Shown here piece after piece: positions 17,936 to 36,450 of a DNA stretch of 64,000 nt. The first letter of the stretch is position 1. Each line of letters begins with the position of its first letter. The DNA is from Acidobacteria bacterium Mor1 (GTDB taxonomy: Bacteria > Acidobacteriota > Polarisedimenticolia > Polarisedimenticolales > Polarisedimenticolaceae). The translations under genes and the position numbers were made by a program. The DNA lies in contig CP011806.1 of the NCBI GenBank assembly GCA_001664505.1, positions 875,795-939,794 of the forward strand. The letters are read 5' to 3'. Below the pieces are notes generated by a model. The model worked only from the letters and a program-made list of their open reading frames with translations, did not search any database and had not been told where the DNA came from.

Positions 17936-18037
17936 GATAGTGAACCCGCCAGCAATCCTGCAAGGTGGTGTCTCGGGCCGTGGAACGCGAAGCCGTCGGG
18001 GGCAGCGCCCCGGACCGGCCAACGATGTGGACCGGGC

Positions 18038-19838: not shown

Positions 19839-20321
19839 CTAATTAATGCGGTAGAAGACCAGATTCGAACCGTTTTCCAGCTTCTCCGCGTACGAGTCGG
19901 TCACCTTGACCGCGGACGCGGGATCGAACCTGGTCGGATCTTCCGACCGGTTGACCGTGTGCTCCTCGGCCCCGTTGTCAATCGTGAACACCACCCGATC
20001 CCCGACCTTCAGGGCATGTACCTGGATGGCATCCGAACCCGGGCCGGGCTGGTTGCCCAGCATCGAACCGGTGGGGCCGAGAGAGACCAACAACGCCACG
20101 CCCAACGCCACCGGAGCGACCGCCGCGCCCAGCACCTGCCAGAACGGACGGAACAACGGTTGCGCCGGGCGAGTCTCCAGCCGCCCCTGAGCGGCCGCCG
20201 CCACGATAGAGGCCCGGGCATCGCCCGAGAGGCGCTCTTCTCGCGGCGCACGGGCAGCCCGGATCGCCTGATCCAGCAGGGCCGCTTTCGCCTTGTGCTC
20301 GCCTTGAGGTTGATGTCTCAT
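19839..20321 (-). CDS. Single-span membrane protein, candidate anti-sigma factor
   Basis: 160 residues: a short charged helical cytoplasmic part (KAKAALLDQAIRAARAPREERLS), one transmembrane helix (about 62-84, WQVLGAAVAPVALGVALLV) and a small outer domain (about 70 residues) containing KVGDRVVFTIDNG and EEHTVNRSE. The layout and position directly after an ECF sigma factor fit a cognate anti-sigma factor, but the zinc HxxxCxxC motif of ZAS-type anti-sigmas is absent, so this is inference from context. The ATG at 20321 has AGGAG seven bases upstream; the frame running on to 20378 overlaps the sigma factor end and lacks an SD. Confidence 0.6.
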   Translation of the reverse strand: MRHQPQGEHKAKAALLDQAIRAARAPREERLSGDARASIVAAAAQGRLETRPAQPLFRPFWQVLGAAVAPVALGVALLVSLGPTGSMLGNQPGPGSDAIQVHALKVGDRVVFTIDNGAEEHTVNRSEDPTRFDPASAVKVTDSYAEKLENGSNLVFYRIN

Positions 20322-20374
20322 CCCACTTCTCCTGTTCCTTACACCGGGGAATACCGGCGCGGAACGGGAAACGA

Positions 20375-21046
20375 TCAATCGCCCCCGACTTTTTTTTGCT
20401 CCGGAGGCGAAATCCCCCGGATCGAGGCCTGCTCCATCAATTCCTGGAGCCGGTTGCGGGCCCGGCCGAGGTGCCGGCGCACGGTGATGGAGGTGATCCC
20501 GAGGGCCCGGGCAACCTCCCGGGTATCGAGATCCTCCAGCTCACGCAGCACGAAGACGGCCCGCTCCCGGTCGGATAGTTGCTCCAGCGCACCCTCCAGG
20601 GCGCTGCGCAGGGCGTGGGCCTCGGCACTCTCCCCCAGACGGGTGTCCGCCGGCTCCCACTCGTCGAAGCCGTCCAGGGACTCCGCACCGGCCCCGCCCC
20701 GACTGCGGGAGCGGTAGTCGTGGGCTGCGTTGACGCTGATCTTGTAGATCCAGGAGTGAAAGGCCCGTCCCCGCCGGAAGCCGCGGAGATGGCGGAAGAC
20801 CCGCACGAAGACCTCCTGAGCGACATCTTCGCGATCCTGATGCGGGACTCCCATCAGCCGCAGCACCCTCAGGACGCGGCTCTCGTGACGCTCAATGAGC
20901 GTTTCAAGCGCGCGCACCTCGCCGTTTTGCGCTCGTTCGACGAGCACCAGATCGGTGGCATCGGGTTCGGGACGCAAGACCACGCGAAGCCCCCGCGACA
21001 CCGGCCAGGTCCCAGGGAGGCGCCGGCCGGGCGCACGATCCGCCAT
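20375..21046 (-). CDS. ECF-type RNA polymerase sigma factor
   Basis: 223-residue group 4 sigma factor directing RNA polymerase to an extracytoplasmic-response regulon. Region 2 (about 38-112) contains LIERHESRVLRVLRLMG, then QDREDVAQEVFVRVFRHL and HSWIYKISVNAAHD. Region 4 (about 150-210) contains LSDRERAVFVLRELEDLDTREVA followed by the helix-turn-helix ALGITSITVRRHLGRARNRL. An N-terminal arginine-rich stretch of about 30 residues is extra. AAGGGG lies six bases before the ATG. An 18-bp perfect palindrome sits immediately upstream of the SD. The gene follows the C25 peptidase by 73 bases on the same strand, so peptide-locus read-through into it is possible. Confidence 0.92.
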   Translation of the reverse strand: MADRAPGRRLPGTWPVSRGLRVVLRPEPDATDLVLVERAQNGEVRALETLIERHESRVLRVLRLMGVPHQDREDVAQEVFVRVFRHLRGFRRGRAFHSWIYKISVNAAHDYRSRSRGGAGAESLDGFDEWEPADTRLGESAEAHALRSALEGALEQLSDRERAVFVLRELEDLDTREVARALGITSITVRRHLGRARNRLQELMEQASIRGISPPEQKKVGGD

Positions 21047-21119: not shown

Positions 21120-24100
21120 TCAGAACGGGCTGCGGTTCCCCCGCCGGTCGACGCTGATCACCGTGTAGTACACGATGCCGCCCGGAGGCGAAATCTCAAC
21201 CTCCGTCACGGACAGGTTGTCGACCAGCGGCGTCGGGTCGTTACAGGTCGTGTCGAAGGAGTCGCAGAGCGAATCCCGGGAAATCGGACTGGCGCTCGAA
21301 TAGACCTCGTAGTGGTCGATCGTGAGCGGCGTGCCGTCGAAGTCCGCAGTCACCGGCGACCAGTTGAAGCGCAGATTCCCGCCGGACGGCTCACAGCTCT
21401 CGTCCACCGGGCACTCGCTGTCCAGCACGCAGGACTGCCCCGTCGTGACCGAGCAGGTCCCGACCTTGCCCACGATCAGGTCCGACACCGCGGCCGGGAG
21501 CTGATTGCCCAGCCCACCGCCGAACCCATCGTCATCGATCGCCCGCACCAGATAGTGCAGGTCGTCGGGAGAGCTCAGCGCCCCGGGATCGGTGAACGTC
21601 GTTTGCCCTCCGGGCACCGTCGCAATCCGGGTGGCCACCGTCGGAGCGAAATCCGGAGTGCTGCCCCGGTAGATCTCGTAGGAGCTCACCGTTTCGTTCT
21701 TGGCGTAGATGTCCAGGCTGACCGCGGACCAGGAAAGCACGGCGTCATTGCCGGACTTGTCCAGGGTCAGGTCACTGATGAATCCGGGGCTACGCAGGCC
21801 GAGAACCAGGGTCGGGCGACCCGAGACCTCCACCGAGGGCCCCGAGTCGAGATCGGAGCTATTGGTCGCCGTCACCACCACGTAGTAGTCGGCGCCGTTT
21901 TCAAGGCCGACGATGGCGTGACTCGTCTCGCCGAAATCCGCCGGTTCCGCGGTCGGCGTGCAGCCGGCGTTCTGGAAGCAGCCGGGTTCCTGACTGTAGT
22001 AGACGGTGTAGCGATCGACATCCAGCTCCGGGTTGGGATTCCAGGAGACGTCGAGGCGACCGCCGGTTTCGGCATCGGCCACCGCGACACCGGTCGGCTC
22101 GCTCGGCGGGTTGGGGTTGATCGGATTCGCCAGCACGCAATCGGCATCGCCGGGATCGGTATCGCAGGTGGCGTTGAAGTTCGATTGGGCGCTGTCGAAC
22201 CCATCGGCATCGACCGCCACTACGTAGTAGTAGTAGGTGCGGTTGTTATCGACGGTCGTGTCCGAGTAGACACAACGCGCCGGGTCCGGCGCGCCGCAAT
22301 CCACCGGCGAAGGGTTGACCCTGGCGTAGTTCTGGTTCTGCAGCAGGCTGCGATAGATGTCGTACTGCGCCCCGGCGGTGTCGCTGCGATCCCAGGAGAG
22401 ATCGACCACGAGACTGCCGTCAACGGTCTGAACGTCTGAAGCGGGCTCGACGGTGGGGAGCTGCAAACGGGTCGCGGGGTCGCCGAGCAGAACGTAGAAC
22501 TGACAAGCTTCGAAGAAATTCTGCGTACAGAAATCGGTGACGCTCTTCATCACGATCTTACCCAGGGTGCGTTCCTTGTTGCCGCCGAAGGCCTCGCCCC
22601 AGGTAGAGGTCGTCCCCTGCTCGCCGATGAAGCGACGCCCGAGCCCCGAGGGAGCGTAGAGCGCAATCGCGCCCCCATTGGCCGACTTGAGCCAACTCTC
22701 TCCCATGGACTGCAACGCCGTCGTGTGGAATCCACCGGTCAGACAGTTGTGCACCTGCACCCAGGGCAAGCGCAGGCCGTTGGTCAGGCCGCCCACTTCA
22801 TTGCGGCCCGAGCAGAACGGGCTGGAACTGTTGCCGCAAAACACCACGTCATCGGACCACAGATCGAAGTTGCCGTGGCCGATGAACTGCATCATCGCCG
22901 CGCCGTCGAAGCCGTCGTCTCCGTTGACGCCGTCTTCGATCGCCGACGTCATCGCCGAGGCGCCCACGGCGCAGCCGGGCAGGCTGCCGTTACAGAACTG
23001 AGGGTCGCTCCAGTAGCGCAAGCTCCGATCGGTATGCGGCGGACTCTTCATGTACGAGAGGCCCAGGTCGTTGATCCGCTCGAAGTCGGCGGTCTCGTCC
23101 AGGTCGACCACGCCGCCCCGCTCCTTGCCACGATCGGCAACCATCAGAGCATGGCGCTGCCACAGACCACTGACCGCAGACTGCTCGTAGTCCAACACCT
23201 TGTTGAGCTGGGTGTCGAGTTCCGATTCGGTGCGGGCACTGAGGCGCCCGATCATGAACTCGGGTTGATCGTCATCGCCGACCACGGCACCGAGCAGCGT
23301 ATCGCTGGCGTAGTACCCGATCGAGATATCGTCCTTGAACATGATCTTGGTCGGCACGAAGCTGCCGAAGGCCTCCCCGCCGAGGTAGTCCAGGGAGGCG
23401 TCTCCCAGCAACAGCACGTAGGAAGGCCGGGTCGCCCAGTTGTCGTAGGCATAGGCCAGCAGGCTTTGAATGCCCGGCGGCCCGTTAAAGCCGAAGTTGA
23501 AGTCGTCGTCGACATCGTCCATACAGGCAACGACGGACGATAGGCCCTGCTCGGCCGATCGGTAGGCCAGGAGCGCACTCAACTCGGTGTCCGCGCAGTT
23601 GGCCGGATCGTCGAGCAGACTGCGGTGGGCGATGACCAGAATGTCGCCGCCGGCGCTCTGGGCCAGATCGGACACCATATCCGCCTCGAAGTCGGAGCCG
23701 CTCGGCGTGCTCAGAGCTCCGGTGGCGAAGACGGCGAATCGCCGCGGGGCCCCGGACCCGGTGTCGTCGATGCGGAAGCGGACATCGACCGAGCCTGCGC
23801 CGCTGGTCGAGACTCCGGTCAGGCGCACCGGCTCGTCCACGATCCCGAAACCGGTACCGGCCAACGGCTGGGTCAACTCCCAGACCTCGACCTCGGTGGA
23901 AGACAGGCCGCTGACGATGAACTCGGCATCTTCATCGGGCCACTCGAAGACCAGGCTGTCGCCGAGGCTGGCGAAGGTCCGGTCGTACTCGACCTCGATG
24001 AAGTTCAACATCACCTGGTTCTGGGCGCCCACGACGGTCGGGGGCACGATCTCGACGGTCAGAGGGCTCGTGAGCTGCGCCCCGCCGGAGAAGCTCCAGG

Positions 24101-25562
24101 GAATGTCGTGGGTGAACATGACCCGGCCGTCGTAGGTCTGGTCGTCGGTGGCCAGGGTCTGGTCGGTGGTGTTGAGCAGGGTGATCTGGGTCCGATGGTC
24201 CGGGTTGGTCCCCTCTTCCTCGGTCAGACCCCGGATCTGCACCGTCACCTGGGCGGTGCCCGTACCGCCGGCCAGCTCGGGAAGGGTCACGTCTTCTTCG
24301 CGGCTGATCGTCGCGGCCTGGGTCGGGATCCAGGTCCAGGGGTCCTCGTCCTTGAGCGGCCGGAACGCGTCATCCACTTCGGCCCGGACCGTGGCCCGCA
24401 CCGTCGTGGGCGGGGTGCGGGAGAAGGTCGGCGCGGCGTCCAGCTCGGCCAGGCGCGCGCGGCTGCCGACCTCGGAGGTCAGGAAGTAGACCGTGTCCTC
24501 GTTGAAGTCGAGGTAGTCGAAGATTTCCTGTCCGGGGAGATCGATGCGAAGCGCGGTCTTGGCCTCGTCATCCATGGCCTCGCCCCAGAACTGAATCCAG
24601 TCGCCGGCCTCGAGACTGTCGTTGCCGTTCTGGTCGAACACCTGGATCGGCGTCTCGACCCCCTGGGTCTCCAGCTTGTAGCTCGACAGGGGCACCGCCT
24701 CGAAGCCGGTGCCGTTCAGGGTGGCGAAATCCAGGCGAACCGGACCGTTGACCCGGGTGCGGATCCGCTGGCGCGGGCCGCTGCCCGCAGCGAGAGACGC
24801 GGCCTGAACGCCCTCCTCGGTCGCTTCGATCTGCTGCCGAGACGCCCGGAACGTACGCGCTTCGGCGTAGTTCACGAAAGTCTCGCGATAAATGCTCTCG
24901 AAAGGACCCGCGGCGGCCGGTGCGGTGCGGGCCCCGTCGTCGCCGTCGAAGTGGACGGAAACCTGAAGACTCGAAACGACCGAGAGGCCGCCGGTCTCCG
25001 GGTCCCACTGGACGGGGCGAAGGTGAACCTTGACGTACCATTGGTCGCGGAGCCGCTCGACGGCGCCGAGCTCGGCCAGCGGCAAGCGTGGATCGAGATA
25101 CCTCTCGGCGTGTTCCAGGTAGTCTTCGACCTGGGTGAAGCCCAACCGGCCGGCGCTTTCCAGGGGATCGACGCCCAGTAGCGCCGAGGAGACCGGATCC
25201 GGCGGCTCGAGACGCACGGTGGGAACCGGGCGCGGACGCACGTCGGACAGGAAGCTGAGGCTCCCTGCCGAGTACTCCAATCGAGGGGTCACCCCGGGCG
25301 GGATCGCCACGAGGATCGTCTTGAAAGGAAGATCAGGGGCTCCCGGTCGCGAAGCACGCGATCGGAAGCCCTCAATCTCGATTACCGCCCCCGTTGGCTC
25401 TTGATAGGCTCGAACCGGCGGGGTCGTCAGCTCAAAAGAGAACCCCGCGGGCACACCAGACTCCTCGAGGGACCGGACAGCCGGACCAGCCGAAGAGAAT
25501 GATACCCCCCCTGCGGCCAAGCCTATCAAGAGACACAACGCAAACAAGTTGCGTGGTCTCAT
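21120..25562 (-). CDS. Secreted C25 (gingipain-like) cysteine peptidase with C-terminal FN3 domains
   Basis: 1480 residues. Signal peptide (RNLFALCLLIGLAAGGVSF); N-terminal propeptide/beta region to about 635, including ADFGTP-like beta domains typical of C25 propeptides; caspase-like peptidase about 640-1030 with YVLLLGDASLDYLGG, catalytic His in FIGHGNFD (H896) and Cys in VHNCLTGGF (C940); then three or four fibronectin type III modules to the end, interrupted by Cys-pair inserts (CSVTTGQSC, ECPVDESCE). It lacks a recognisable Bacteroidetes type IX sorting domain and ends abruptly in GNRSPF. ATG 25562 is chosen (AGGTG nearby); a GTG lies two codons upstream. It is 61 bases after the candidate precursor-peptide gene on the same strand, separated by a strong hairpin. 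Extracellular proteolysis is likely; a role in peptide maturation is inference. Confidence 0.82.
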   Translation of the reverse strand: MRPRNLFALCLLIGLAAGGVSFSSAGPAVRSLEESGVPAGFSFELTTPPVRAYQEPTGAVIEIEGFRSRASRPGAPDLPFKTILVAIPPGVTPRLEYSAGSLSFLSDVRPRPVPTVRLEPPDPVSSALLGVDPLESAGRLGFTQVEDYLEHAERYLDPRLPLAELGAVERLRDQWYVKVHLRPVQWDPETGGLSVVSSLQVSVHFDGDDGARTAPAAAGPFESIYRETFVNYAEARTFRASRQQIEATEEGVQAASLAAGSGPRQRIRTRVNGPVRLDFATLNGTGFEAVPLSSYKLETQGVETPIQVFDQNGNDSLEAGDWIQFWGEAMDDEAKTALRIDLPGQEIFDYLDFNEDTVYFLTSEVGSRARLAELDAAPTFSRTPPTTVRATVRAEVDDAFRPLKDEDPWTWIPTQAATISREEDVTLPELAGGTGTAQVTVQIRGLTEEEGTNPDHRTQITLLNTTDQTLATDDQTYDGRVMFTHDIPWSFSGGAQLTSPLTVEIVPPTVVGAQNQVMLNFIEVEYDRTFASLGDSLVFEWPDEDAEFIVSGLSSTEVEVWELTQPLAGTGFGIVDEPVRLTGVSTSGAGSVDVRFRIDDTGSGAPRRFAVFATGALSTPSGSDFEADMVSDLAQSAGGDILVIAHRSLLDDPANCADTELSALLAYRSAEQGLSSVVACMDDVDDDFNFGFNGPPGIQSLLAYAYDNWATRPSYVLLLGDASLDYLGGEAFGSFVPTKIMFKDDISIGYYASDTLLGAVVGDDDQPEFMIGRLSARTESELDTQLNKVLDYEQSAVSGLWQRHALMVADRGKERGGVVDLDETADFERINDLGLSYMKSPPHTDRSLRYWSDPQFCNGSLPGCAVGASAMTSAIEDGVNGDDGFDGAAMMQFIGHGNFDLWSDDVVFCGNSSSPFCSGRNEVGGLTNGLRLPWVQVHNCLTGGFHTTALQSMGESWLKSANGGAIALYAPSGLGRRFIGEQGTTSTWGEAFGGNKERTLGKIVMKSVTDFCTQNFFEACQFYVLLGDPATRLQLPTVEPASDVQTVDGSLVVDLSWDRSDTAGAQYDIYRSLLQNQNYARVNPSPVDCGAPDPARCVYSDTTVDNNRTYYYYVVAVDADGFDSAQSNFNATCDTDPGDADCVLANPINPNPPSEPTGVAVADAETGGRLDVSWNPNPELDVDRYTVYYSQEPGCFQNAGCTPTAEPADFGETSHAIVGLENGADYYVVVTATNSSDLDSGPSVEVSGRPTLVLGLRSPGFISDLTLDKSGNDAVLSWSAVSLDIYAKNETVSSYEIYRGSTPDFAPTVATRIATVPGGQTTFTDPGALSSPDDLHYLVRAIDDDGFGGGLGNQLPAAVSDLIVGKVGTCSVTTGQSCVLDSECPVDESCEPSGGNLRFNWSPVTADFDGTPLTIDHYEVYSSASPISRDSLCDSFDTTCNDPTPLVDNLSVTEVEISPPGGIVYYTVISVDRRGNRSPF

Positions 25563-25575
25563 GGTCACCTACCGA

Positions 25576-25623: not shown

Positions 25624-25743
25624 TTAGCTCTGGATCGGGCCGGCGGCGCAATCAGCGTCGGTAGCCTTGGCGCAGGTTACCGCGCGGGCTTCGAGCTTTT
25701 CCGTGTGGACGATCGCAGGACGCTCGTACGTCTTCTTGGTCAT
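25624..25743 (-). CDS. 39-residue candidate RiPP precursor peptide
   Basis: Unrecognised short gene. ATG at 25743 is preceded by GGGGAGG with a 7-base spacer, an ideal SD; it ends at TAA 25624-25626. The peptide begins MTKKTYERPAIVH, has a charged mid-section EKLEARAV, then two cysteines (C24 and C32) in a small-residue, Thr/Asp-rich stretch, and ends AAGPIQS. This split into a charged, proline-containing leader and a Cys-bearing tail is what is expected of a radical-SAM-modified peptide substrate. It lies 132 bases after the radical SAM/SPASM gene, itself behind a PqqD-like gene that would act as leader-binding domain, and 61 bases before a C25 peptidase. There is no signal peptide. Substrate status is inferred from context; no modification is shown by sequence. 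Confidence 0.72.
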   Translation of the reverse strand: MTKKTYERPAIVHTEKLEARAVTCAKATDADCAAGPIQS

Positions 25744-25875
25744 TTATCAGCCTCCCCCTGAAATAGTCGGGTCAGACCCTGTTGTCCAAACTTCAGTCAA
25801 CCGATGGTCACAAAGACCCTGGAGCCTGGAATCATTCCCAGGTCGCAGGATTTATACGGTGCCCCCTCGGGCATT

Positions 25876-26967
25876 TCAAGCAGATTTTCTGCCGTCATTC
25901 TTGTCTTCAATCTGTAACAATTCGTAAGTCTTGCGAACGGCCCCGGCATTGACCTCCGCCTGGGGGTAGATCCCCAGCGGATCACCGGTCTGGACCTCCG
26001 CTACTCCCAGACAGAACTGGAAATATTGGCCATCCTTGTGTTTTCGCAACTCGTCGCTGGCCTGGACCGCCAGATCCCGGACCTCGTTGAGTACCGGCGA
26101 GGTGCGCCAGATCCGCTCCAGGCTGTCGATCTCGAGGATATTGGCCACCTGCCGGCGGAAAGCCACACAGGGCAGGATATTGCCGTACGGATCGATGGTG
26201 AAGCCCGAGCGGGCGGTCCCGCAGTTGGCCTCGGAGCCCTCGGCGGCGCAGTGGTTGGCCCGCGGAGGGAGCTTGCCGTGGTGCAGCTCCTGGTACAGCT
26301 CGCCCCAGTAACGCTCGAAGAAGGCGTCGTCGGGACGCAGGGAGAGCGGATCCTGGTTGCCGTCGTCCTTTGGGGTGATCACCGGGTCGAAAGTCACGAA
26401 AAGGCCGCGCTTCTCACCGATATCCCGTACGCCGATCAGCTCGTCCTGGTTCAACTTGGTGATCGGGCACTTCAGATTGACCTTGATCCCGGCCTCGACC
26501 AGGTTGTCCAGCGCCTGGACCGTCTTGTCGAAGGAGCCCTTGATGTGGGTCAGAGCTTCATGGCTTTCGGGACGGGCGCCGTGGAGCGAGATCTCCACCT
26601 CGTGGGGCCCGAGCTTGGCCAGACGGTTCACGACCTTCTTGTCGCCCAGCAGGAAGCCGTTGGAGTAGACGCGTAGCGCCATGCCCAGGCGGCGGGTCTC
26701 GGCGGCGATGGCCCAGAAATCCTTGTGGCACATCGCTTCGCCACCGGTCAGGGTCAGATACAGGACCCCGAAATCCGCCATCTTTTTAAGAGCTTCAAAA
26801 ATTTGAGGTGTGGTGAGCTCACGTTGACCGGTGGGCGAGTTGTAGCAGAACGTGCAGAGGTGATTGCACCGGTAGGTGATCTCGAACTGCGCGTTCAGCG
26901 GGATGGCGTTGGCGAACGCCTTGCCCATCATGTCGCGATACGGGTTGGTCTGTGGAGTTTCGCTCAA
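25876..26967 (-). CDS. Radical SAM/SPASM-domain peptide-modifying enzyme (candidate)
   Basis: 363 residues. The N-terminal radical SAM core carries the [4Fe-4S] motif CNHLCTFC (C34, C38, C41), followed by LTLTGGEAMCH (SAM contact) and VEISLHGARPESHEALT. The C-terminal third is SPASM-like with cysteines in NHCAAEG, NCGTARSGFTIDPYGNILPC and a late FCLGVAEV, expected to hold auxiliary Fe-S clusters. Enzymes of this build install thioether, C-C or other crosslinks in ribosomal peptides or act on proteins. The start is TTG 26967 with AGGGGGA seven bases upstream. It directly follows the PqqD-like gene (19 bases) and precedes the short Cys-peptide gene, which fits a RiPP maturation role. The exact chemistry cannot be read from sequence. 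Confidence 0.88.
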   Translation of the reverse strand: MSETPQTNPYRDMMGKAFANAIPLNAQFEITYRCNHLCTFCYNSPTGQRELTTPQIFEALKKMADFGVLYLTLTGGEAMCHKDFWAIAAETRRLGMALRVYSNGFLLGDKKVVNRLAKLGPHEVEISLHGARPESHEALTHIKGSFDKTVQALDNLVEAGIKVNLKCPITKLNQDELIGVRDIGEKRGLFVTFDPVITPKDDGNQDPLSLRPDDAFFERYWGELYQELHHGKLPPRANHCAAEGSEANCGTARSGFTIDPYGNILPCVAFRRQVANILEIDSLERIWRTSPVLNEVRDLAVQASDELRKHKDGQYFQFCLGVAEVQTGDPLGIYPQAEVNAGAVRKTYELLQIEDKNDGRKSA

Positions 26968-26986
26968 CGTGGATTCCCCCTCGAGC

Positions 26987-27268
26987 TCACGGAGTGGCGT
27001 TCAGCATGCCGTGCTGCGCCAGATCGTCGATGAAGGCGTTGACATCCTTCAGCGCGTCCTCGGCGCTCACGTCGAACTCACCGGCGATCGCCTCGGCGAT
27101 CTGTTCCCGGGAGTGCTCGCCGTCCAGCATGGTGAAGATCTTGATGGCCGCCGGGTTGAGGACCTTGACCTCTTGCCGGCCGGACATCACGACCAGTCCG
27201 CCTTCGTCCCCGATGGTTCGGAACGCGGTTTCCGGATGACGCAGCGGCTTCTCGGGCGCGGAACTCAT
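26987..27268 (-). CDS. PqqD-like peptide-recognition protein
   Basis: 93-residue protein of the PqqD fold, a winged-helix RiPP recognition element that binds precursor leader peptides and presents them to a radical SAM partner. Visible features: an N-terminal strand region (GGLVVMSGRQEVKVLNPAAIKIFTML), then the conserved helix pair DGEHSREQIAEAIAGEFDVSAEDALKDV and a C-terminal FIDDLAQHGML. The start chosen is ATG 27268 with GGAG six bases upstream; the frame extension to TTG 27280 covers the SD. It is the first gene of the locus, 19 bases before the radical SAM gene. Confidence 0.85.
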   Translation of the reverse strand: MSSAPEKPLRHPETAFRTIGDEGGLVVMSGRQEVKVLNPAAIKIFTMLDGEHSREQIAEAIAGEFDVSAEDALKDVNAFIDDLAQHGMLNATP

Positions 27269-27302
27269 GCCGTACTCCAAAGCGGGCGAAGTGCCCTAAC
27301 AA

Positions 27303-27378
27303 ACTGTAGCAGATACACTTGCGGCGCGAGTCCACCGCGGCCGACCGTAAGTGTACGGTGAACACCGAGGCCCTTCAA
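27303..27378 (-). promoter_or_regulatory. Promoter and inverted repeat upstream of the pqqD-like gene
   Basis: On the minus strand TTGAAG (27378-27373), 17-base spacer, TACACT (27355-27350): a good sigma-70-type promoter. A second, extended -10 candidate TGC-TACAGT lies at 27311-27303. The first -10 is inside one arm of an inverted repeat (TACACTTGCGG at 27314-27324; CCGTAAGTGTA at 27345-27355; 10 of 11 positions pair; 20-base spacer), so a dimeric repressor binding here would block transcription of the whole peptide locus. Confidence 0.6.
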
Positions 27379-29741: not shown

Positions 29742-31085
29742 TCACTCCACGTAGCCCAGGTCGCGCAGGATCTGCAGCTCCTCGGGGTCCAGGTCGACGT
29801 CGAGCCGCCCTTGCCCCGGCGCGGGCACCAGGCTCAACACGCCGGCCAGGGACTCCGCCGCGGTCGCATCCCGGTCCAGCACGCTACGCCGCTCATCGGG
29901 ATCGTCCGCTGCGTAGAACAGCCGCCCCGACCCATCCTGCTCCTGGATCAACGTACCCTCGTCACCGCGAATCGAGACCAGATCGCCGCCCCAGAGGCTT
30001 CCCTCGGCGATGGCGAAGGGCGCGTCGACGCTGCCCAGGACGCCGCCCGGCAGCGGCGGCCCATCGATCCCCGCGTAGTCGAGCACCGTGGGCAAGATGT
30101 CGATCTGCCGCACCCGGTCGAAGCGGGACTCCGGGCTCTCACCCGGGCGCTTGACGATCAGCGGCACGTGCAACAGCTCGCGATGATGACTGTGGCCATG
30201 TTCGAAGCCGCCGTGATCCCAGAACTCCTCGCCGTGATCGGCGACGACGATCACCAACGAGTCCTCCCACAGGCCCATGCGCTCCAGGCCAGCGCGCAGC
30301 CGGCCGAACTGCTCGTCGGCAAAAGCCAGCTCCCCGTCGTAGCGGGCGATCAGGCTGCCCTTCTCGCCAGGAGTGAGTTCGATCTCTCCTCGGCGCAGGG
30401 CGAACAGCTCCCGGGCGTGTCCGAAACCGCGAGGCAACGCCGATGCACCGGCCGGCTCGAAGCGGGTATCGAAGGGTGCCGGCGGGTCGTAGACCAGGTG
30501 CGGGTCGAAGTAGTGCACCATCATCAGGAAGTCGCGCTCCCCGACCGACTCCGCCCAGCGCAATGCCGCGTCGGTGGTCGCCCGCGCATCCCGATGCCCC
30601 TGGTTGCTGGCGTCGCTGGTATGGAAGTCGTACACGTCGAAGCCCCGGGAGATCCCGGTGCCCGGATTGCAGAAGACCACGTTGACCCAGGCCGCGGTGG
30701 CGTAGCCGGCCCGGGAGAGCAACTCGGCCATGGTCGGGACCTCGGGGCGTACCCCCTGGAGTTGGCGGGCGCCCGACTCCGAGGGCTTCATCCCGGCTCC
30801 GTGATGCCGCGGCAACACGCCGGTCACGATGCTGGCAAAGGACGGCAGGGTCCAGGGCGCCTGACTCCAGGCGTTGCGGTAGAGCCGGCTCTCGTCGGCC
30901 AGCCGGTCGAAGTTCGGAGTCGTCTCCCGGGGATAGCCCATCGACGAGAAGTGGTCTGCCCGGGTCGTGTCCAGCACCACGAGAACCACGCCCGAACGGG
31001 GTGACGCATCTCCGGCGCAGGAGAGCGCTCCGGTCAGGGCCAGGACGAGGGCCAGGATCCCCGCCAACCGCACGCGGAGATTCAT
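29742..31085 (-). CDS. Sulfatase-like (alkaline phosphatase superfamily) lipoprotein
   Basis: 447 residues. Signal MNLRVRLAGILALVLAL and lipobox ALSC. Catalytic motifs: VLVVLDTTRADHFSSMGYP (metal), nucleophile loop SQAPWTLPSFASIVTG with Thr, VVADHGEEFWDHGGFEHGH (metal) and LLHVPLIVKRPG. As in the neighbours there is no formylglycine Cys/Ser-x-Pro-x-Arg, so sulfatase activity is doubtful; phosphatase or phosphoethanolamine/phosphoglycerol-type transfer is as likely. The frame extends upstream inside uvrC, but the ATG at 31085 begins the signal and lies eight bases past the uvrC stop, so it is the end of the uvrB-to-uvrC run. Substrate unknown. Confidence 0.82.
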   Translation of the reverse strand: MNLRVRLAGILALVLALTGALSCAGDASPRSGVVLVVLDTTRADHFSSMGYPRETTPNFDRLADESRLYRNAWSQAPWTLPSFASIVTGVLPRHHGAGMKPSESGARQLQGVRPEVPTMAELLSRAGYATAAWVNVVFCNPGTGISRGFDVYDFHTSDASNQGHRDARATTDAALRWAESVGERDFLMMVHYFDPHLVYDPPAPFDTRFEPAGASALPRGFGHARELFALRRGEIELTPGEKGSLIARYDGELAFADEQFGRLRAGLERMGLWEDSLVIVVADHGEEFWDHGGFEHGHSHHRELLHVPLIVKRPGESPESRFDRVRQIDILPTVLDYAGIDGPPLPGGVLGSVDAPFAIAEGSLWGGDLVSIRGDEGTLIQEQDGSGRLFYAADDPDERRSVLDRDATAAESLAGVLSLVPAPGQGRLDVDLDPEELQILRDLGYVE

Positions 31086-31093
31086 CGGCGGCT

Positions 31094-32911
31094 TCAAGAC
31101 GCCGCCTCTTCGCCGCCGGCGTAGCGGGCGTGGATCTTCTCGGCGAGCTTGCGGCCGACCACCTGGGCCAACGCCTCGGGGTCCGCCGCCTTGACCGCCG
31201 CCAGACTCCCCAACTCCTCGAGCAGGCGTCGCGCCTTGGCGGGACCGACTCCCGGAATCTCCAGGAGCTCGGTGGTCAGCGTCCGGCGGCTTCGCCGCTT
31301 GCGGTGATGGGTCACGGCAAAGCGGTGGGCCTCGTCGCGAATCTGCTGCACCAGCTTCAGCGCCGGCGAACTGCGGTCCAGCCGGACCGGGTCCGAGCGG
31401 CCCTGGAGGAAGATCTCCTCCTCCCGCTTGGCCAGGGAGATGACCGGCAGCATCGGCAGACCGACGTCGGCCAGCGCCCGTACCGCCGCACCGAGCTGCC
31501 CCTGGCCTCCGTCGATGAGCACCAGATCGGGCAGACGACGGTCCTCGGCGATCAAACGCCTGTAGCGCCGGGTGACCGCCTCGGCCATCGAGGCGAAGTC
31601 GTCGGGGCCTTCCACCGTGCGGATGTTGAAGCTGCGGTAGTCGCTCTTGCGCGGCTTGCCCCCTTCCCAGACCACGAGCGACGCGACGGTGTCGCTCCCC
31701 TGGATGTTGGAGATGTCGAAGCACTCGATGCGGAACGGCGGCTCGTCGAGCCCCAGCGCCTCGGCCAACGCTTCCAGCGCCGCCACCCCGTGGGTGTGGT
31801 GCGCGCGGAAGCGGCTGTCGAATCCGAGTTTGGCGTTCTTGCGCACCAACTCCAGGAAACGCCGTTTGCTGCCGCGCTGGGGAACGTGGAGTCTGACCTT
31901 GGAGCGCCGCAACTCGCCGAGAAGCTCCGCCAGCAGTTCGTGATCTTCAGGCAGGGTGTCGACGTGAATCTCGGGCGGCGGCTCGTTGTCTCCGTAGTAC
32001 TGCATCAACACCGCCTGGTAGAACGAGGCCTCGTCGGTCTCCACGTCGTCGAAGGTGAACTCCCTGCGTCCCTGAATCTTGCCGCCGCGCATCTGGAACA
32101 GCTGGAGCGCGACCTGGGTCCCCTCGCGGTGATGGGCCAGGAAGTCCTGGTCCTCCCGCCCGACGGTGGCCACGTACTGGCGCTCCGCGTACTTGCGGAT
32201 GGTCTTCAGGGTGTCCCGGTGGCGCGCCGCCGACTCGTACTCCTGCTGGTCGCTGGCCGCCTTCATCTTGGTCTCTAGAGACTGCTCCAACTCCTTGTGC
32301 CGCCCCTCGAGAAACAGCCGCGCCGACGCCGTGGCCTCGGCGTACTCCTCCGGGTTGGTCTTGCCGGCGCAGGGAGCCAGGCACTGGTCCAGGTGGTAGT
32401 AGAGACAGGGGCGCCGCTTGCCGTCGAACACCTCGTTGCAGGTCGCGACCCGGAAGAACCGCGGGATCATCTTCATGGTTCGGCGGGCGACCCAGGTCGG
32501 CGTGAAGGGACCGAAGTAGAGGTTCTTGTCAAGCTTGGCCCGGCGCACCAGTGACACCCGCGGATAGGTGTCGGCGGTCGAGAGCTTCAGGTAGGGGAAG
32601 TGCTTGTCGTCCCGCAGAATCACGTTGTAGCGCGGGCGGTGGCGCTTGATCAGGTTCGACTCGAGGATCAGCGCCTCTTTCTCGGTATCGACCACGATCA
32701 GTTCGAGATCGCGCACCTCGTCGACCATCTGGGCGATGCGGGCGGGGTGCTGGGCCGACGGCTGGAAGTAGGAGCGGACCCGGGAACGCAGCGACTTGGC
32801 CTTGCCGACGTAGATCGGCGTGCCCTCGCCGTTGCGATAGACGTAGACACCGGGCCGGTCCGGAAGGCCGTCGAGCTTCACCTTCAGGCTGTCGCGCCAG
32901 TCTCCGCTCAC
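31094..32911 (-). CDS. uvrC: UvrABC excinuclease subunit C
   Basis: 605 residues, normal for the family. UvrC makes both incisions around a UvrB-bound lesion. An N-terminal GIY-YIG nuclease (GVYVYRNGEGTPIYVGKAKSLRSRV, about 17-45) cuts 3'; a UVR UvrB-interaction motif follows (MKAASDQQEYESAARHRDTL); the RNase H-like nuclease domain (IECFDISNIQGSDTVAS and LVLIDGGQGQL) cuts 5'; C-terminal helix-hairpin-helix motifs (LLEIPGVGPAKARRLL) bind DNA. GTG 32911 is chosen because it puts the GIY-YIG domain at the usual distance from the N-terminus; the frame to 32971 overlaps the HprK-like gene. It lies 10 bases after that gene, an unusual setting, because uvrB and uvrC are seldom in one run. Confidence 0.96.
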   Translation of the reverse strand: MSGDWRDSLKVKLDGLPDRPGVYVYRNGEGTPIYVGKAKSLRSRVRSYFQPSAQHPARIAQMVDEVRDLELIVVDTEKEALILESNLIKRHRPRYNVILRDDKHFPYLKLSTADTYPRVSLVRRAKLDKNLYFGPFTPTWVARRTMKMIPRFFRVATCNEVFDGKRRPCLYYHLDQCLAPCAGKTNPEEYAEATASARLFLEGRHKELEQSLETKMKAASDQQEYESAARHRDTLKTIRKYAERQYVATVGREDQDFLAHHREGTQVALQLFQMRGGKIQGRREFTFDDVETDEASFYQAVLMQYYGDNEPPPEIHVDTLPEDHELLAELLGELRRSKVRLHVPQRGSKRRFLELVRKNAKLGFDSRFRAHHTHGVAALEALAEALGLDEPPFRIECFDISNIQGSDTVASLVVWEGGKPRKSDYRSFNIRTVEGPDDFASMAEAVTRRYRRLIAEDRRLPDLVLIDGGQGQLGAAVRALADVGLPMLPVISLAKREEEIFLQGRSDPVRLDRSSPALKLVQQIRDEAHRFAVTHHRKRRSRRTLTTELLEIPGVGPAKARRLLEELGSLAAVKAADPEALAQVVGRKLAEKIHARYAGGEEAAS

Positions 32912-32921
32912 GTGGAGCAGT

Positions 32922-33773
32922 CTACTCGCCCGAGCGGGCCAGCGCGCGCAGGAGCGGCAGGAAGCCGCCATCCCGACGGAAGGTCAGCTGCCGCACCGGA
33001 GCACCCTCGAGCAGGCTGCTGACAACCCCTGCCAGCGGGGATCCGGCCTCACCGATCCGTTCACCGACCCAGGGGAAGTTGGCGCCGAGCCGGGCCTGGG
33101 CCAGCAAGGGGGAGACCTCGGCCAGCTCGTGGGCCTCACCGTGGGCCGAGAACAACAGCGCACCGACGGGCCAGCGCCCGGATCCCGGGCTGCCGAACTC
33201 CCGGATGCGGAAGGGTGAACCGAGCAGCTCGGGCCGTTCCCCGGAGGTATCCAGCAGCAGCAGATCGTCGCTGAGCGGCAGGGCCCCGCCCTCCCGGGCC
33301 AACCGGACCCAGGTGGTCTTCCCCGCCCCCGATTGACCGACCAGCGCAAAGGCCGCGCCGTCGACGACGATGCCGCCGGCGTGCATCAGTGCCGCACCAT
33401 GCACCGGCAGCTCCCAGGCCATCGCCGCCAGCATCAGATTGACCATGCCGAAGAAACGGTGCCCCGAGTCGCCGTCGTGCACCTGGAGCTCGACCCGGCC
33501 GCTCCCCCGTTCGAAGGAGCAGAGCCCCTCGTCCATCTCGATGGCGACCCGCGTCCCACTGAGTCGGGTCTCGAGCTTTTCGCCGCGGAACGGGCCGGGG
33601 TCCATCACCCCGCCACTGGGAGTGACGGTGATGTCGATGATCGGGTCGGCGCCCGGGTTCAGAAAACCTTGCCAGCGCTCCCGGACGAGCTCCTCGCAGT
33701 CGGCGGGAAACCCGCGCAGGTGCACACCGATCCCGGAAAAGTCTGCCCGTAGATCGACCGTCGCGCGGCTCAT
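32922..33773 (-). CDS. HPr kinase-like P-loop protein (2)
   Basis: 283 residues. The C-terminal half has the HprK-type nucleotide site: LMHAGGIVVDGAAFALVGQSGAGKTTWVRL (Walker A GQSGAGKTT, about 145-153) and LPLSDDLLLLD (paired Asp). The N-terminal half lacks the HPr-binding domain and is unrelated. HprK-like proteins of this size are best known from peptide biosynthetic clusters (for example lasso peptide kinases) and not from sugar regulation. It begins ATGA with the dioxygenase gene stop and ends 10 bases before uvrC. ATP-dependent phosphorylation of a peptide or small molecule is a reasonable hypothesis; the substrate is not visible. Confidence 0.75.
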   Translation of the reverse strand: MSRATVDLRADFSGIGVHLRGFPADCEELVRERWQGFLNPGADPIIDITVTPSGGVMDPGPFRGEKLETRLSGTRVAIEMDEGLCSFERGSGRVELQVHDGDSGHRFFGMVNLMLAAMAWELPVHGAALMHAGGIVVDGAAFALVGQSGAGKTTWVRLAREGGALPLSDDLLLLDTSGERPELLGSPFRIREFGSPGSGRWPVGALLFSAHGEAHELAEVSPLLAQARLGANFPWVGERIGEAGSPLAGVVSSLLEGAPVRQLTFRRDGGFLPLLRALARSGE

Positions 33774-34432
33774 TGCCCCCGTGCCATCACGTAGGTACGG
33801 TCGAGCATCGGGCGTGGGCGCTTGGTCAGGTTGGTCGTGGCCCGGTGCACGCAGTTTCCGTCGCGCAACACTCCATCACCCCGCTGCAGGTTCAGGCGGT
33901 GCGGGTAGATGTTGACCAGGTCATCGAAGCTGCCGAAGGAACGCCGCAGACGATGGGTCCCCGGCAAGATCTCCATCGCGCCGTTGGCCCAGGTGAAATC
34001 GACCAGCGGGACGTTGTAGGTCAGCCGGATGGTGCGTTCCTGGCGGTTCGGATCCGGGGTCTCGTCGAGGGTTTGATCGGTGTGCCATTCGGATCCGTCG
34101 AACACGCACTCGAGATTCGAACGAACGTTGCGCCAGTACTCCCCGCCGAAGACCTGCTCCACCAGCTCTTCGACCACCTCGCAACGGCGGAAGTAACGGT
34201 CGTCCCCCAACGGGCCCTCGCTCAGGTCCGGGCGCTCGTCGAGGTCCAGGCTGAGGCGGTCGGGGTGCTCGGCGTCCTCGACGCGAGAGTCGATCATCTC
34301 GCGGATCACCGGCATCAGCTGCTCGTAGGTGTTGCGCACCCAGGTGCGGGGAACGATGCCCCGCAACACGACGAAGCCGTTGAGCTCGAACTCCCGCAGC
34401 CAACGCTGCTTCTGGTCCAGGTCGAGGCTCAC
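33770..34432 (-). CDS. Phytanoyl-CoA dioxygenase-like Fe(II)/2-oxoglutarate oxygenase
   Basis: 220 residues. PhyH-type double-stranded beta-helix with facial triad His and Asp in SEWHTDQTLDE and distal His in GNCVHRATTNL, followed by Arg in RPMLDRTYVM for 2-oxoglutarate. Other landmarks are LREFELNGFVVLRG near the N-terminus and NGAMEILPGTHRLRRSFG. It should hydroxylate or otherwise oxidise a small molecule or peptide side chain using O2. GTG 34432 is chosen because the protein then starts SLDLDQKQRWLREFELNGF, four bases past the HprK-like stop; the frame to 34570 lies antisense-like within that gene. Shorter than most PhyH proteins. Substrate unknown; it sits between two HprK-like genes. Confidence 0.75.
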   Translation of the reverse strand: MSLDLDQKQRWLREFELNGFVVLRGIVPRTWVRNTYEQLMPVIREMIDSRVEDAEHPDRLSLDLDERPDLSEGPLGDDRYFRRCEVVEELVEQVFGGEYWRNVRSNLECVFDGSEWHTDQTLDETPDPNRQERTIRLTYNVPLVDFTWANGAMEILPGTHRLRRSFGSFDDLVNIYPHRLNLQRGDGVLRDGNCVHRATTNLTKRPRPMLDRTYVMARGQ

Positions 34433-34436
34433 CGGC

Positions 34437-35342
34437 TCAGAGTCCGGCCCGGTCGATCGCGTCCCAGTAGCTGTCGTCCTTGCGGAAGTGCAGGTGCGCC
34501 AACGGAACCGGGCGCAACACCTGCTCGACCTGCGCGAAGAGGTCGGGGCGATCGGCGAACCGCTCGGCAACGAAGGGCAGGTTGCCCACGAGCTCTCCCA
34601 GGGCCCTGGCGCGAGGCACGTCGTGCACCGCCGCTTCGGGCGCCTGGATCAGGCGGAAGCCGGCGGCCAGGGGGAAGCGCCCGACGACCGGCTCGCCCCC
34701 CTCGTAGGTTCCACGGAACGGGCTGCCGATCACGTCGAGCCCGCCGTTCTCGCCGGGGAGCAGCACCGAGATGTCGTCGCTGATCACCCGGCCGCGGCGG
34801 TTGCATTCGGAGAGAGTCGACTTGCCGGCACCGGACTCGCCGAAGAACAGATAGCCCCGTTCGTTGCGCACGGCGCTGGCGGCGTGGACCAGCATGCCGC
34901 CGCGGGTCACCGCCATCCAGGCAACGGCGACACGGATATAGTTCTCGAGAGCCCGGTCCGCGGGCTCGTAGGTCCCCTGAGCCAGCAGGACCTGACCCTC
35001 CATCGCGTCGAGATCGAACCAACCGGCCACCCGGTACCCCAGGTAGCGCACCAGGTTTCCCTCGCAGGCGATCAGGATCGGGTTGAGCTCGGGCACCTCG
35101 GGCGGATTGAAGAAGTACTCCCGGGGCTCCCGTCCCAGACGCACCCGCATCGCCGGCTGCCCCTCCGATGACGGGCGGGTGTAGGGCGTGTAGCGTGTTT
35201 CCATCGTGTGGGCCAGCTCGTCGTCGAGACCACCCAGTTCGAACAGGATGCGATCGAGCTGGAGCACCATCGACGCCGAACCTCCGGCCTCGCGGGGCGC
35301 GTCGAAGAAGGATTTCTCGGGGGGTGCAGCGGGTCTCGACAT
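34437..35342 (-). CDS. HPr kinase-like P-loop protein (1)
   Basis: 301 residues. The P-loop half contains MLVHAASAVRNERGYLFFGESGAGKST (Walker A GESGAGKST) and VISDDISVLLPG; about 150 N-terminal residues precede it, including VLQLDRILFELGGLDDELA. It resembles its downstream neighbour in the nucleotide site but not in the N-terminus, so the two are distinct family members and not a recent duplication. ATG 35342 is chosen (19 bases past the methyltransferase stop, weak SD); an ATG at 35270 with GGAGG ten bases ahead is the alternative, and the frame to 35525 overlaps the methyltransferase. Likely ATP-dependent kinase; substrate unknown. Confidence 0.72.
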   Translation of the reverse strand: MSRPAAPPEKSFFDAPREAGGSASMVLQLDRILFELGGLDDELAHTMETRYTPYTRPSSEGQPAMRVRLGREPREYFFNPPEVPELNPILIACEGNLVRYLGYRVAGWFDLDAMEGQVLLAQGTYEPADRALENYIRVAVAWMAVTRGGMLVHAASAVRNERGYLFFGESGAGKSTLSECNRRGRVISDDISVLLPGENGGLDVIGSPFRGTYEGGEPVVGRFPLAAGFRLIQAPEAAVHDVPRARALGELVGNLPFVAERFADRPDLFAQVEQVLRPVPLAHLHFRKDDSYWDAIDRAGL

Positions 35343-35361
35343 GGGGGCGCATGGTAGCGCC

Positions 35362-36450
35362 TCAGCAGCGCTCCAGCAATGCATGACCGGCGGACCACTC
35401 CCCTGCCCGGAAGCCCGCCGCGTCGACCTCCCGGGCCAGTTCCCGCGCCCCGAAAACCCGGACGGCGGAGCGATGCAACGCTCCGTCGGGGCCGACGAAG
35501 CGGGTGTGGCTGTGCCCCCACTCACCCGCCCCGCGCCGGCTCAGCCACTGGATCCAGAGGATGCAGCGTTCGTAAGCTCGCTGCACCCGGCGGGCCGAGA
35601 GCCAGAGCGCCCCGTCGGGCCGCAAACGCTCCCGCAGCGCCTGAAGCGTTGCGATCCGCTCCGCGCGCGTCGGAATGAAACTGTAGACGTCGTAGGTGAA
35701 GTGCACGCAGTCGAGGCTCGCCGGTGCCGGAGCGAGTTCCCGGATGTCCCCGAGCTCGAAGTCCACCGAAAGCTCGCGCCGGCTTGCCTCCTTGCGCGCC
35801 TCGGCGATCATCGGCTCGGAGAAATCGACCCCGGTGACCCGCCAGCCCCTCTCCGCCAGGTCGAAACACTCCCGGCCGGTCCCGCAACCGACGACCAGGA
35901 CGTCCCCCGGCTCGCTGAAGCGACTCGAGAAACGCGCCTCGAGGGACGGATCGATCCCCGCTTCCTGAACCTGGGCGTAGAACGGGGCCTGCATGTCGTA
36001 CTTGAACTTGACGCTGTCGGCGGCGCCCCGTCCGGGGCGCCCGCGCCAGGCCTCGGACAGATCGAGCAGCAGCCGCCGGCGGGCATGGCCTCGGGCGACC
36101 GGGCTCGCGGGCAAGCTCGTGGAGGCCAGCAGCGAGGCGGCGGGGACCCGGCGCGGCGTCGGGTCCGCATCGGCCATCAAGAGGAACGTGTCGCCGTTCA
36201 CCTCACGGACTCGCAGCAGATCGGGGATGCCGTCGATGGTCGCGACGACCAGATCTCCGGCTGCGGGTGGATCACCGGCCGCCCGGGCCTCGAAGCGCGT
36301 CCCGTGGAGCACCGCCGCGCCCATCCGATCCCCGGCGTAGAGCAACTCCATCGGCGCCATCTTCAACATCAGGCGCAACACCCCTTCGGTAGCGAAAGAA
36401 GCGGGGTCGGCGATGAGCAGGGTCGAGATCGGGTGCCAGAACGGGGTCAC
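35362..36450 (-). CDS. S24/S26-like domain fused to a class I SAM methyltransferase
   Basis: 362 residues. About 1-115 looks like the beta-barrel fold of S24/S26 peptidases ([43 protein letters not shown]), but a clear Ser/Lys dyad is not seen. About 130-360 is a class I methyltransferase: motif [20 protein letters not shown], motif [16 protein letters not shown], and an Asp in [14 protein letters not shown]. The two halves are in one frame with no interruption. It starts GTG overlapping the uvrB stop (GTGA), so it depends on uvrB translation. It may methylate the product of the kinases and dioxygenase downstream; no substrate is visible. Fusion of these two domains is uncommon to my knowledge. 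Confidence 0.75.

Follow-up and report, generated by a model that had tools for sequence, protein, structure and literature searches.

What is the product of a 39-codon open reading frame lying between the genes of a radical SAM enzyme and of a C25 peptidase, and with which of its neighbors does it work? The frame is found in the window, i.e., the 64,000-nucleotide stretch of the Acidobacteria bacterium Mor1 genome (a single contig of 5.985 Mb) analyzed here, and belongs to a minus-strand cassette whose order of transcription is PqqD-like → radical SAM → 39-codon gene → C25 peptidase → ECF sigma. The reading that we consider likely, with a probability of roughly 0.72, is that the locus represents a RiPP pathway in which the peptide would be captured by the PqqD protein, endowed with a Cys thioether by the radical SAM enzyme and phosphorylated on Ser by an HprK-like kinase, the resulting product being partnered with the C25 peptidase; both chemistry and role are inferred.

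The 39-codon gene and its family

Presence, coordinates and minus-strand orientation of the first four genes of the cassette were verified in the window, and the one-strand gene order that a previous sequence-only reading had proposed for them held. The four genes encode a PqqD-type recognition protein or RRE (26987..27280; Pfam PqqD, 2.1e-14), a radical SAM maturase with a twitch-like auxiliary domain (25876..26967; Pfam Radical_SAM, 7.6e-25), the 39-residue putative precursor MTKKTYERPAIVHTEKLEARAVTCAKATDADCAAGPIQS (25624..25743), consisting of a YxxP leader and of a core with C24, K26, C32 and the C-terminal Ser39, and an exported C25 (gingipain-family) cysteine peptidase with an Fn3 domain (21120..25568; Pfam Peptidase_C25, 2.1e-58). 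The "ideal" Shine–Dalgarno element claimed for the 39-codon gene held as well, an SD-like GGGGGAGG (25751..25758 in plus-strand numbering, minus strand) being readable in the sequence 7 nt upstream of the ATG. Directly downstream of the C25 gene lies that of the ECF sigma factor (20375..21046, minus strand), overlapping by 4 nt a minus-strand frame (19839..20378) whose product has one hydrophobic stretch and, as inferred from its position, may be an anti-sigma factor; a Pfam search with this protein gave no match. The order PqqD–radical SAM–peptide–C25 is maintained between families and classes and is identical in Candidatus Polarisedimenticola svalbardensis (class Polarisedimenticolia), whose radical SAM protein is 69% identical to that of the window. 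Sulfatase-family genes are present on both sides of the cassette (window 16127-18022 and 29742-31100).

The 39-codon frame is a genuine gene, a member of a conserved peptide family and not a chance frame, because three observations concur. Comparison of seven close relatives yields a pooled pN of 0.12 and a pS of 0.68 (pN/pS 0.18), the synonymous sites being nearly saturated; the peptide has matches in 44 of 297 Acidobacteriota genomes, the best E outside the window's own genome being 6e-17; and the decoys, consisting of reversed ORFs, reach at best E = 0.05, far weaker than the real peptides, nearly all of which fall between 1e-7 and 1e-20 with the weakest listed at 2e-5. A profile built from the first peptide set detected 107 copies in 96 loci of Acidobacteriota, Myxococcota, Gammaproteobacteria (e.g., Sedimenticola, Competibacteraceae, Chromatiaceae) and Desulfobacterota, Deltaproteobacteria/Desulfobulbus-type MAGs being among these loci.

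The overall signature of the family is YxxP...ExxE..A..C...K...C...S-end, the recognition motif having the fuller form YxxPxI. Within 93 unique peptides, one of which is truncated so that 92 are complete, the YxxP motif begins with Y or W in all 93 and ends with P in 92, whereas the alignment columns E13, E16 and A19 of the leader are conserved in 92, 91 and 92 peptides, respectively. The first core Cys (C24 of the window peptide) is present in 92 of the 93, and exactly two core Cys are found in 92/92 complete peptides; both the two tail cysteines seen in the window peptide by the sequence-only reading and the conservation of C24 and C32 among relatives are therefore borne out. A Lys or Arg lies between the two Cys in 91 of the 92 complete peptides (Lys in 86), the Lys being at a variable spacing from the first Cys (1 to 9) and mostly 4 or 5 residues before the second. 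The C-terminal residue is Ser in 88 of 92 and is, after the Cys, among the most constant of the core.

In deeper relatives of the cassette (radical SAM E about 1e-60) HprK, PqqD, radical SAM and C25 are found together with another peptide between them. This second type, KxYxKP...EEAVLGxCK...C...C...S, has three Cys and a terminal Ser and occurs in eight loci of other Acidobacteriota, on the minus strand in L154 (3132-3308), L155 (4365-4544), L156 (4568-4750), L157 (4712-4888), L160 (10140-10319) and L161 (8784-8963) and on the plus strand in L159 (4944-5204) and L163 (5174-5386). Its presence within the same gene set indicates that gene set, YxxP, Cys–Lys pair and terminal Ser outlast the particular core. 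A distant relative on plasmid pTs417 of Candidatus Thiodictyon syntrophicum (L176), annotated as PqqD family chaperone, follows an IS66 transposase together with radical SAM, YcaO and TfuA genes.

No Pfam or NCBIfam family covers either the two-Cys or the three-Cys type, both of which were searched; a DUF5972 match (E 0.05) was rejected, being weak and confined to the start of the leader. The open-access literature searched contains no description of this peptide/enzyme system, an account in closed journals not being excluded. Within the limits of this literature and of the Pfam/NCBIfam models searched, the family is apparently undescribed, and the earlier statement that the product is not a described one held to the same extent.

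Proposed recognition and modification, and the probable tail kinase

That the 39-residue peptide is the RiPP precursor of the neighboring radical SAM enzyme is very likely, no modification having been observed. The related loci were retrieved using the radical SAM alignment as query against genome contigs, and all 30 genomes (of 297 Acidobacteriota) having a radical SAM match with E ≤ 5.3e-128 also encode the peptide; in addition, 80 peptides are located ≤2 kb from the radical SAM gene. These counts span related genomes, do not represent independent events and were not corrected for kinship. The assignment of the peptide as substrate of the PqqD/radical SAM pair, put forward in the sequence-only reading, is supported by this co-occurrence and by conservation, its crosslink remaining unproven and inferred.

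The expectation that homologues always sit beside radical SAM/PqqD genes is met in most loci, not in all. In one group of Acidobacteriota families (G019, G145, G161, G082, G128) peptide and radical SAM gene are about 12–16 kb apart on the same contig; the peptide-carrying genomes without a close radical SAM match include draft MAGs and G071, in which the gene is cut by the contig end. Four loci (L043, L044, L045 and L046) are solitary extra copies far from the enzymes, beside unrelated genes (gidA/parB, histidine kinase, MerR); such distant copies suggest that one enzyme set may serve several precursors in trans. As to radical SAM homologues lacking a nearby peptide, the exceptions are L111 and L112, where, despite full flanks, neither a peptide detectable by profile nor a divergent one by motif search was found. 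The outer homologues L137-L139, L141-L147 and L149, whose radical SAM proteins are 25–30% identical, were placed outside the system because they are without this peptide and, with the exception of L141, also without PqqD/HprK genes.

With regard to recognition, YxxP is known as the motif by which RREs recognize the leaders of lasso peptides (PMC12710340), and the window PqqD matches lasso PqqD models with 33.8 bits. Two further PqqD genes of the window genome (G000:C1:3021945-3023900, L181; 4623905-4633865, L182) are found near NTP_transf_5 genes, one of them also adjoining an HprK-like match; these are probably other RiPP-type loci.

Within the radical SAM family, SPASM and twitch domains are defined by their Cys motifs, SPASM domains having two auxiliary clusters and the twitch domain, a shortened SPASM-like C-terminal domain, only one. 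The 74 aligned radical SAM proteins have in common, without exception, CX3CX2C (C34, C38, C41) and three auxiliary Cys (C249, C267, C319), arranged as a conserved hairpin motif C249-X12-G-X4-C267 followed by one distant Cys. The SPASM block CX2CX5CX3C is not conserved among these 74 proteins, and the Pfam SPASM score of the window enzyme (21.3 bits) remains just under the cut-off of 21.5. Since only three auxiliary Cys are common to the aligned proteins, the previous label "radical SAM/SPASM" holds in its first part and has to be corrected to "twitch-like" in its second; that the maturase is twitch-like and not a full SPASM enzyme is shown as far as the motifs are concerned, cluster occupancy being inferred.

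The closest solved relative by sequence is the sactipeptide maturase SkfB (1.6e-31), which is also the best Foldseek match (1.1e-15) of the AF2 model of the enzyme (pLDDT 93.9); the epimerase EpeE and SuiB are likewise among the fold matches, and the mycofactocin and heme enzyme models score similarly. An open site is left in the auxiliary clusters of SkfB and of CteB, a thioether enzyme in which the substrate Cys fills it (PMC6231123). Because three Cys ligands would leave an auxiliary-cluster site for a substrate Cys thiolate, and because SkfB is the closest solved relative, one or two Cys thioether crosslinks are proposed as the most likely product, a choice that the evidence favors by a narrow margin, the chemistry being inferred and no product having been observed. 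With SkfB/SKF (and CteB) the window system shares the radical SAM core with twitch-type auxiliary domain, the RRE guidance and the Cys-bearing core. However, SkfB has a fused RRE and five C-terminal Cys (PMC6231123), whereas here PqqD is separate and the auxiliary Cys are three; furthermore, unlike SKF, the window system adds an HprK-like kinase and a C25 protease.

An HprK-like gene is located directly upstream of PqqD in most Gammaproteobacteria and Myxococcota loci and in part of those of Acidobacteriota. In the lineage of the window the kinases are found 5.6–8 kb upstream of the cassette, not adjoining PqqD. Here, kinase B (32922..33773, minus strand; H, GxSGAGKT, DD motif) and kinase A (34437..35366, minus strand; HprK/PEPCK fold, with an ORF start possibly further upstream, up to 35525) flank a gene for a PhyH-type dioxygenase (33770..34570, minus strand) to which no pathway role is assigned, the three genes (window 32922-35366) overlapping like an operon. 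Kinases A and B are the two best of the four HprK-like genes of the genome, and A is its top scorer against the cassette kinase profile. The His, the Walker Gly, Lys and Thr and the Asp (H, G-G-K-[ST], D motif) are invariant in the aligned HprK-like proteins and constitute a set that is close to, nearly that of, the lasso kinases (PMC10368454). The kinase model (pLDDT 89.7) has an HprK/PEPCK fold according to a fold search that returned PEPCK entries. The kinase is a component of the cassette, its phosphorylating activity being inferred.

Lasso kinases phosphorylate a C-terminal Ser, and that of pseudomycoidin is decorated by a kinase/nucleotidyltransferase pair (PMC8498205); by analogy with the lasso kinases, the HprK-like kinase would probably phosphorylate the C-terminal Ser of the peptide, the chemistry again being inferred. 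An NTP_transf_5 gene adjoins the peptide in seven myxococcal/deltaproteobacterial loci (L109, L114-L117, L122, L148), in the available stretches of which, except L117, C25 was not found; this arrangement recalls the kinase/nucleotidyltransferase pair of pseudomycoidin.

The linkage to the C25 peptidase

A C25 ORF is present ≤1.2 kb from 53 of the 80 radical SAM-adjacent peptides, several of the other 27 being at contig ends, and in 52 of the 53 close cases it is on the strand of the peptide. This includes all 13 cases with an oppositely oriented radical SAM gene. About half of the C25 genes lie upstream and the other half downstream of the peptide, which indicates that the pairing survived rearrangements or was re-formed in their course. 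At the level of whole genomes, C25 genes occur in 31 of 35 peptide carriers vs 73 of 262 others (Fisher p = 4e-12; relatedness uncorrected), so that 73 Acidobacteriota genomes have C25 without the peptide. One of the four carriers without C25 is G255, where a contig end truncates the C25 gene, and the only C25 gene of the window genome is that of the cassette. In most myxococcal loci C25 is not seen near the peptide.

The C25 proteins mostly start with a signal-like hydrophobic stretch and mostly comprise 1,000–1,900 amino acids, with Fn3 and other domains. That of the window resembles the PorU/gingipain C25 of type IX secretion in its Peptidase_C25 domain and in the presence of catalytic His (FIGHG) and Cys (NCLTG) but differs in being tied to a RiPP cassette, and its scores with the models for the T9SS sortase PorU, NF033707 and NF052324, stay far below the cut-offs (123.8/420 and 148.7/450 bits, score/cut-off). 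Many acidobacterial relatives likewise have the ECF sigma gene directly behind C25. The strand-linked C25, like the ECF sigma gene, the HprK-like kinase, the near-invariant C-terminal Ser and the twitch architecture, was absent from the sequence-only reading.

Since the peptide, three modifying enzymes and the exported C25 travel together in several phyla, the function of the peptide is probably tied to C25, and a functional pairing beyond chance linkage, inferred from strand linkage and co-occurrence, is likely. Within this pairing, that the peptide is a ligand or regulator of C25 may be true or false with nearly equal odds, and that C25 is its leader protease is slightly disfavored. No dedicated exporter was recognized among the cassette neighbors, and therefore how the peptide meets the exported protease is unexplained.

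The proposed pathway and its rivals

The pathway would consist of four steps. The leader would be bound by the PqqD protein via YxxPxI; the Cys-bearing core would be modified by the radical SAM enzyme, most likely with one or two thioether crosslinks; the C-terminal Ser would be phosphorylated by the HprK-like kinase; finally, the product would act with the exported C25 as a ligand or regulator, or as a substrate trimmed by it. The ECF sigma gene may connect the operon to an envelope signal. Each chemical step and the biological role are inferred, what is directly shown being conservation, co-occurrence, motifs, strand linkage and predicted folds; no product, modification or cleavage of the window peptide has been observed. 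The general hallmark of a radical SAM-modified RiPP at the gene level, namely a short and conserved precursor gene accompanied by those of PqqD/RRE and of a radical SAM enzyme, is present.

Gene sets with PqqD and radical SAM (and HprK-like) components are also known as GeoRSP, SynChlorMet and HPr-rel-A (NCBIfam). The cut-offs of their models were missed by far: GeoRSP TIGR04303 and TIGR04302 gave 103.3/400 and 25.6/100 bits (score/cut-off), SynChlorMet ScmD 39.8/100 and, for HPr-rel-A (TIGR04353/TIGR04352), PqqD scored 20/35 while kinase B had no TIGR04352 match, kinase A being outside the scan. Neither was that of mycofactocin MftC (93.2/265).

Among the rival explanations, a possible one is that C25 is simply the RiPP leader peptidase, removing the leader after export and freeing an ordinary secreted bioactive or signaling peptide. 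The peptidase does adjoin a RiPP precursor to which it is linked by strand, and leader proteases that act outside the cell and carry a signal peptide themselves, such as CylA, are known (PMC10885120). However, the size and the Fn3 and other domains of the C25 proteins are unlike those of usual leader proteases, a review of RiPP leader proteases makes no mention of C25 or gingipain (PMC10885120), and the absence of a recognized exporter also weighs against it. Furthermore, most Acidobacteriota peptides have R directly after the conserved EA, those from elsewhere V, M or F, and there is therefore no shared Arg-type cleavage site.

A second rival holds that the radical SAM enzyme catalyzes another reaction (epimerization, a Lys-involving C–C, C–N or ether link, or decarboxylation) and that the Cys pair forms a disulfide or binds metal. 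The nearly invariant Lys/Arg between the Cys, the presence of EpeE and SuiB among the fold matches and the similar scores of the mycofactocin and heme enzyme profiles speak in its favor; against it are SkfB as best match by both sequence and fold and the constant retention of exactly two Cys while many other positions vary, so that we would not bet on it, without dismissing it.

Very unlikely is that the frame encodes not a modified substrate but a short protein serving the radical SAM/C25 operon as regulator or chaperone: its shortness, its place between two large genes and the solitary copies away from the enzymes are compatible with this view, but an RRE motif and a Cys–Lys–Cys–Ser core of variable spacing suit a substrate far better, as do the several copies per enzyme set and the strict co-occurrence with PqqD and radical SAM. 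A variant lasso-peptide pathway, suggested by the YxxPxI leader, the B1-like PqqD with its lasso match and the tail kinase with nearly the lasso-kinase residues, is all but excluded because the lasso B2 transglutaminase-fold leader peptidase PF13471 has no match in the whole window genome; in addition, the penultimate Thr of lasso leaders is not conserved here, the leader ending ExxExxAxxC, the modifying position is occupied by the radical SAM enzyme, and no asparagine-synthetase-like cyclase was recognized among the neighbors, the only genes scanned for it.

The RiPP pathway proposed above nonetheless shares with the phosphorylated lasso systems (paeninodin, BsfK; pseudomycoidin) the YxxPx[IL] leader, the PqqD-type RRE, the HprK-like kinase with its nearly identical motif, the C-terminal Ser and, sometimes, an NTP_transf_5 gene, and differs from them in the lack of a lasso peptidase and in having a radical SAM protein as modifying enzyme. 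It may thus be described as a combination of phosphorylated-lasso parts (leader, RRE and tail kinase) with a twitch-type sactipeptide maturase. A bolder reading, possible but rather less likely than not, is that of an undescribed multi-phylum RiPP class, with two-Cys and three-Cys types, whose radical-made Cys crosslink and phosphorylated C-terminal Ser would characterize a ligand, regulator or attachment tag reserved for the co-encoded exported C25 and not a free antibiotic.

What the locus offers is a RiPP precursor family with a sharp signature outside the Pfam/NCBIfam models searched, in which parts of two separate RiPP worlds, a lasso-type leader with tail kinase and a sactipeptide-type radical SAM enzyme, appear joined. 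With its strand-locked pairing to C25, it lends itself to testing whether a modified peptide may be the property of a protease and not a natural product released on its own, and the family as a whole provides a handle on the largely uncultured Acidobacteriota and Myxococcota.
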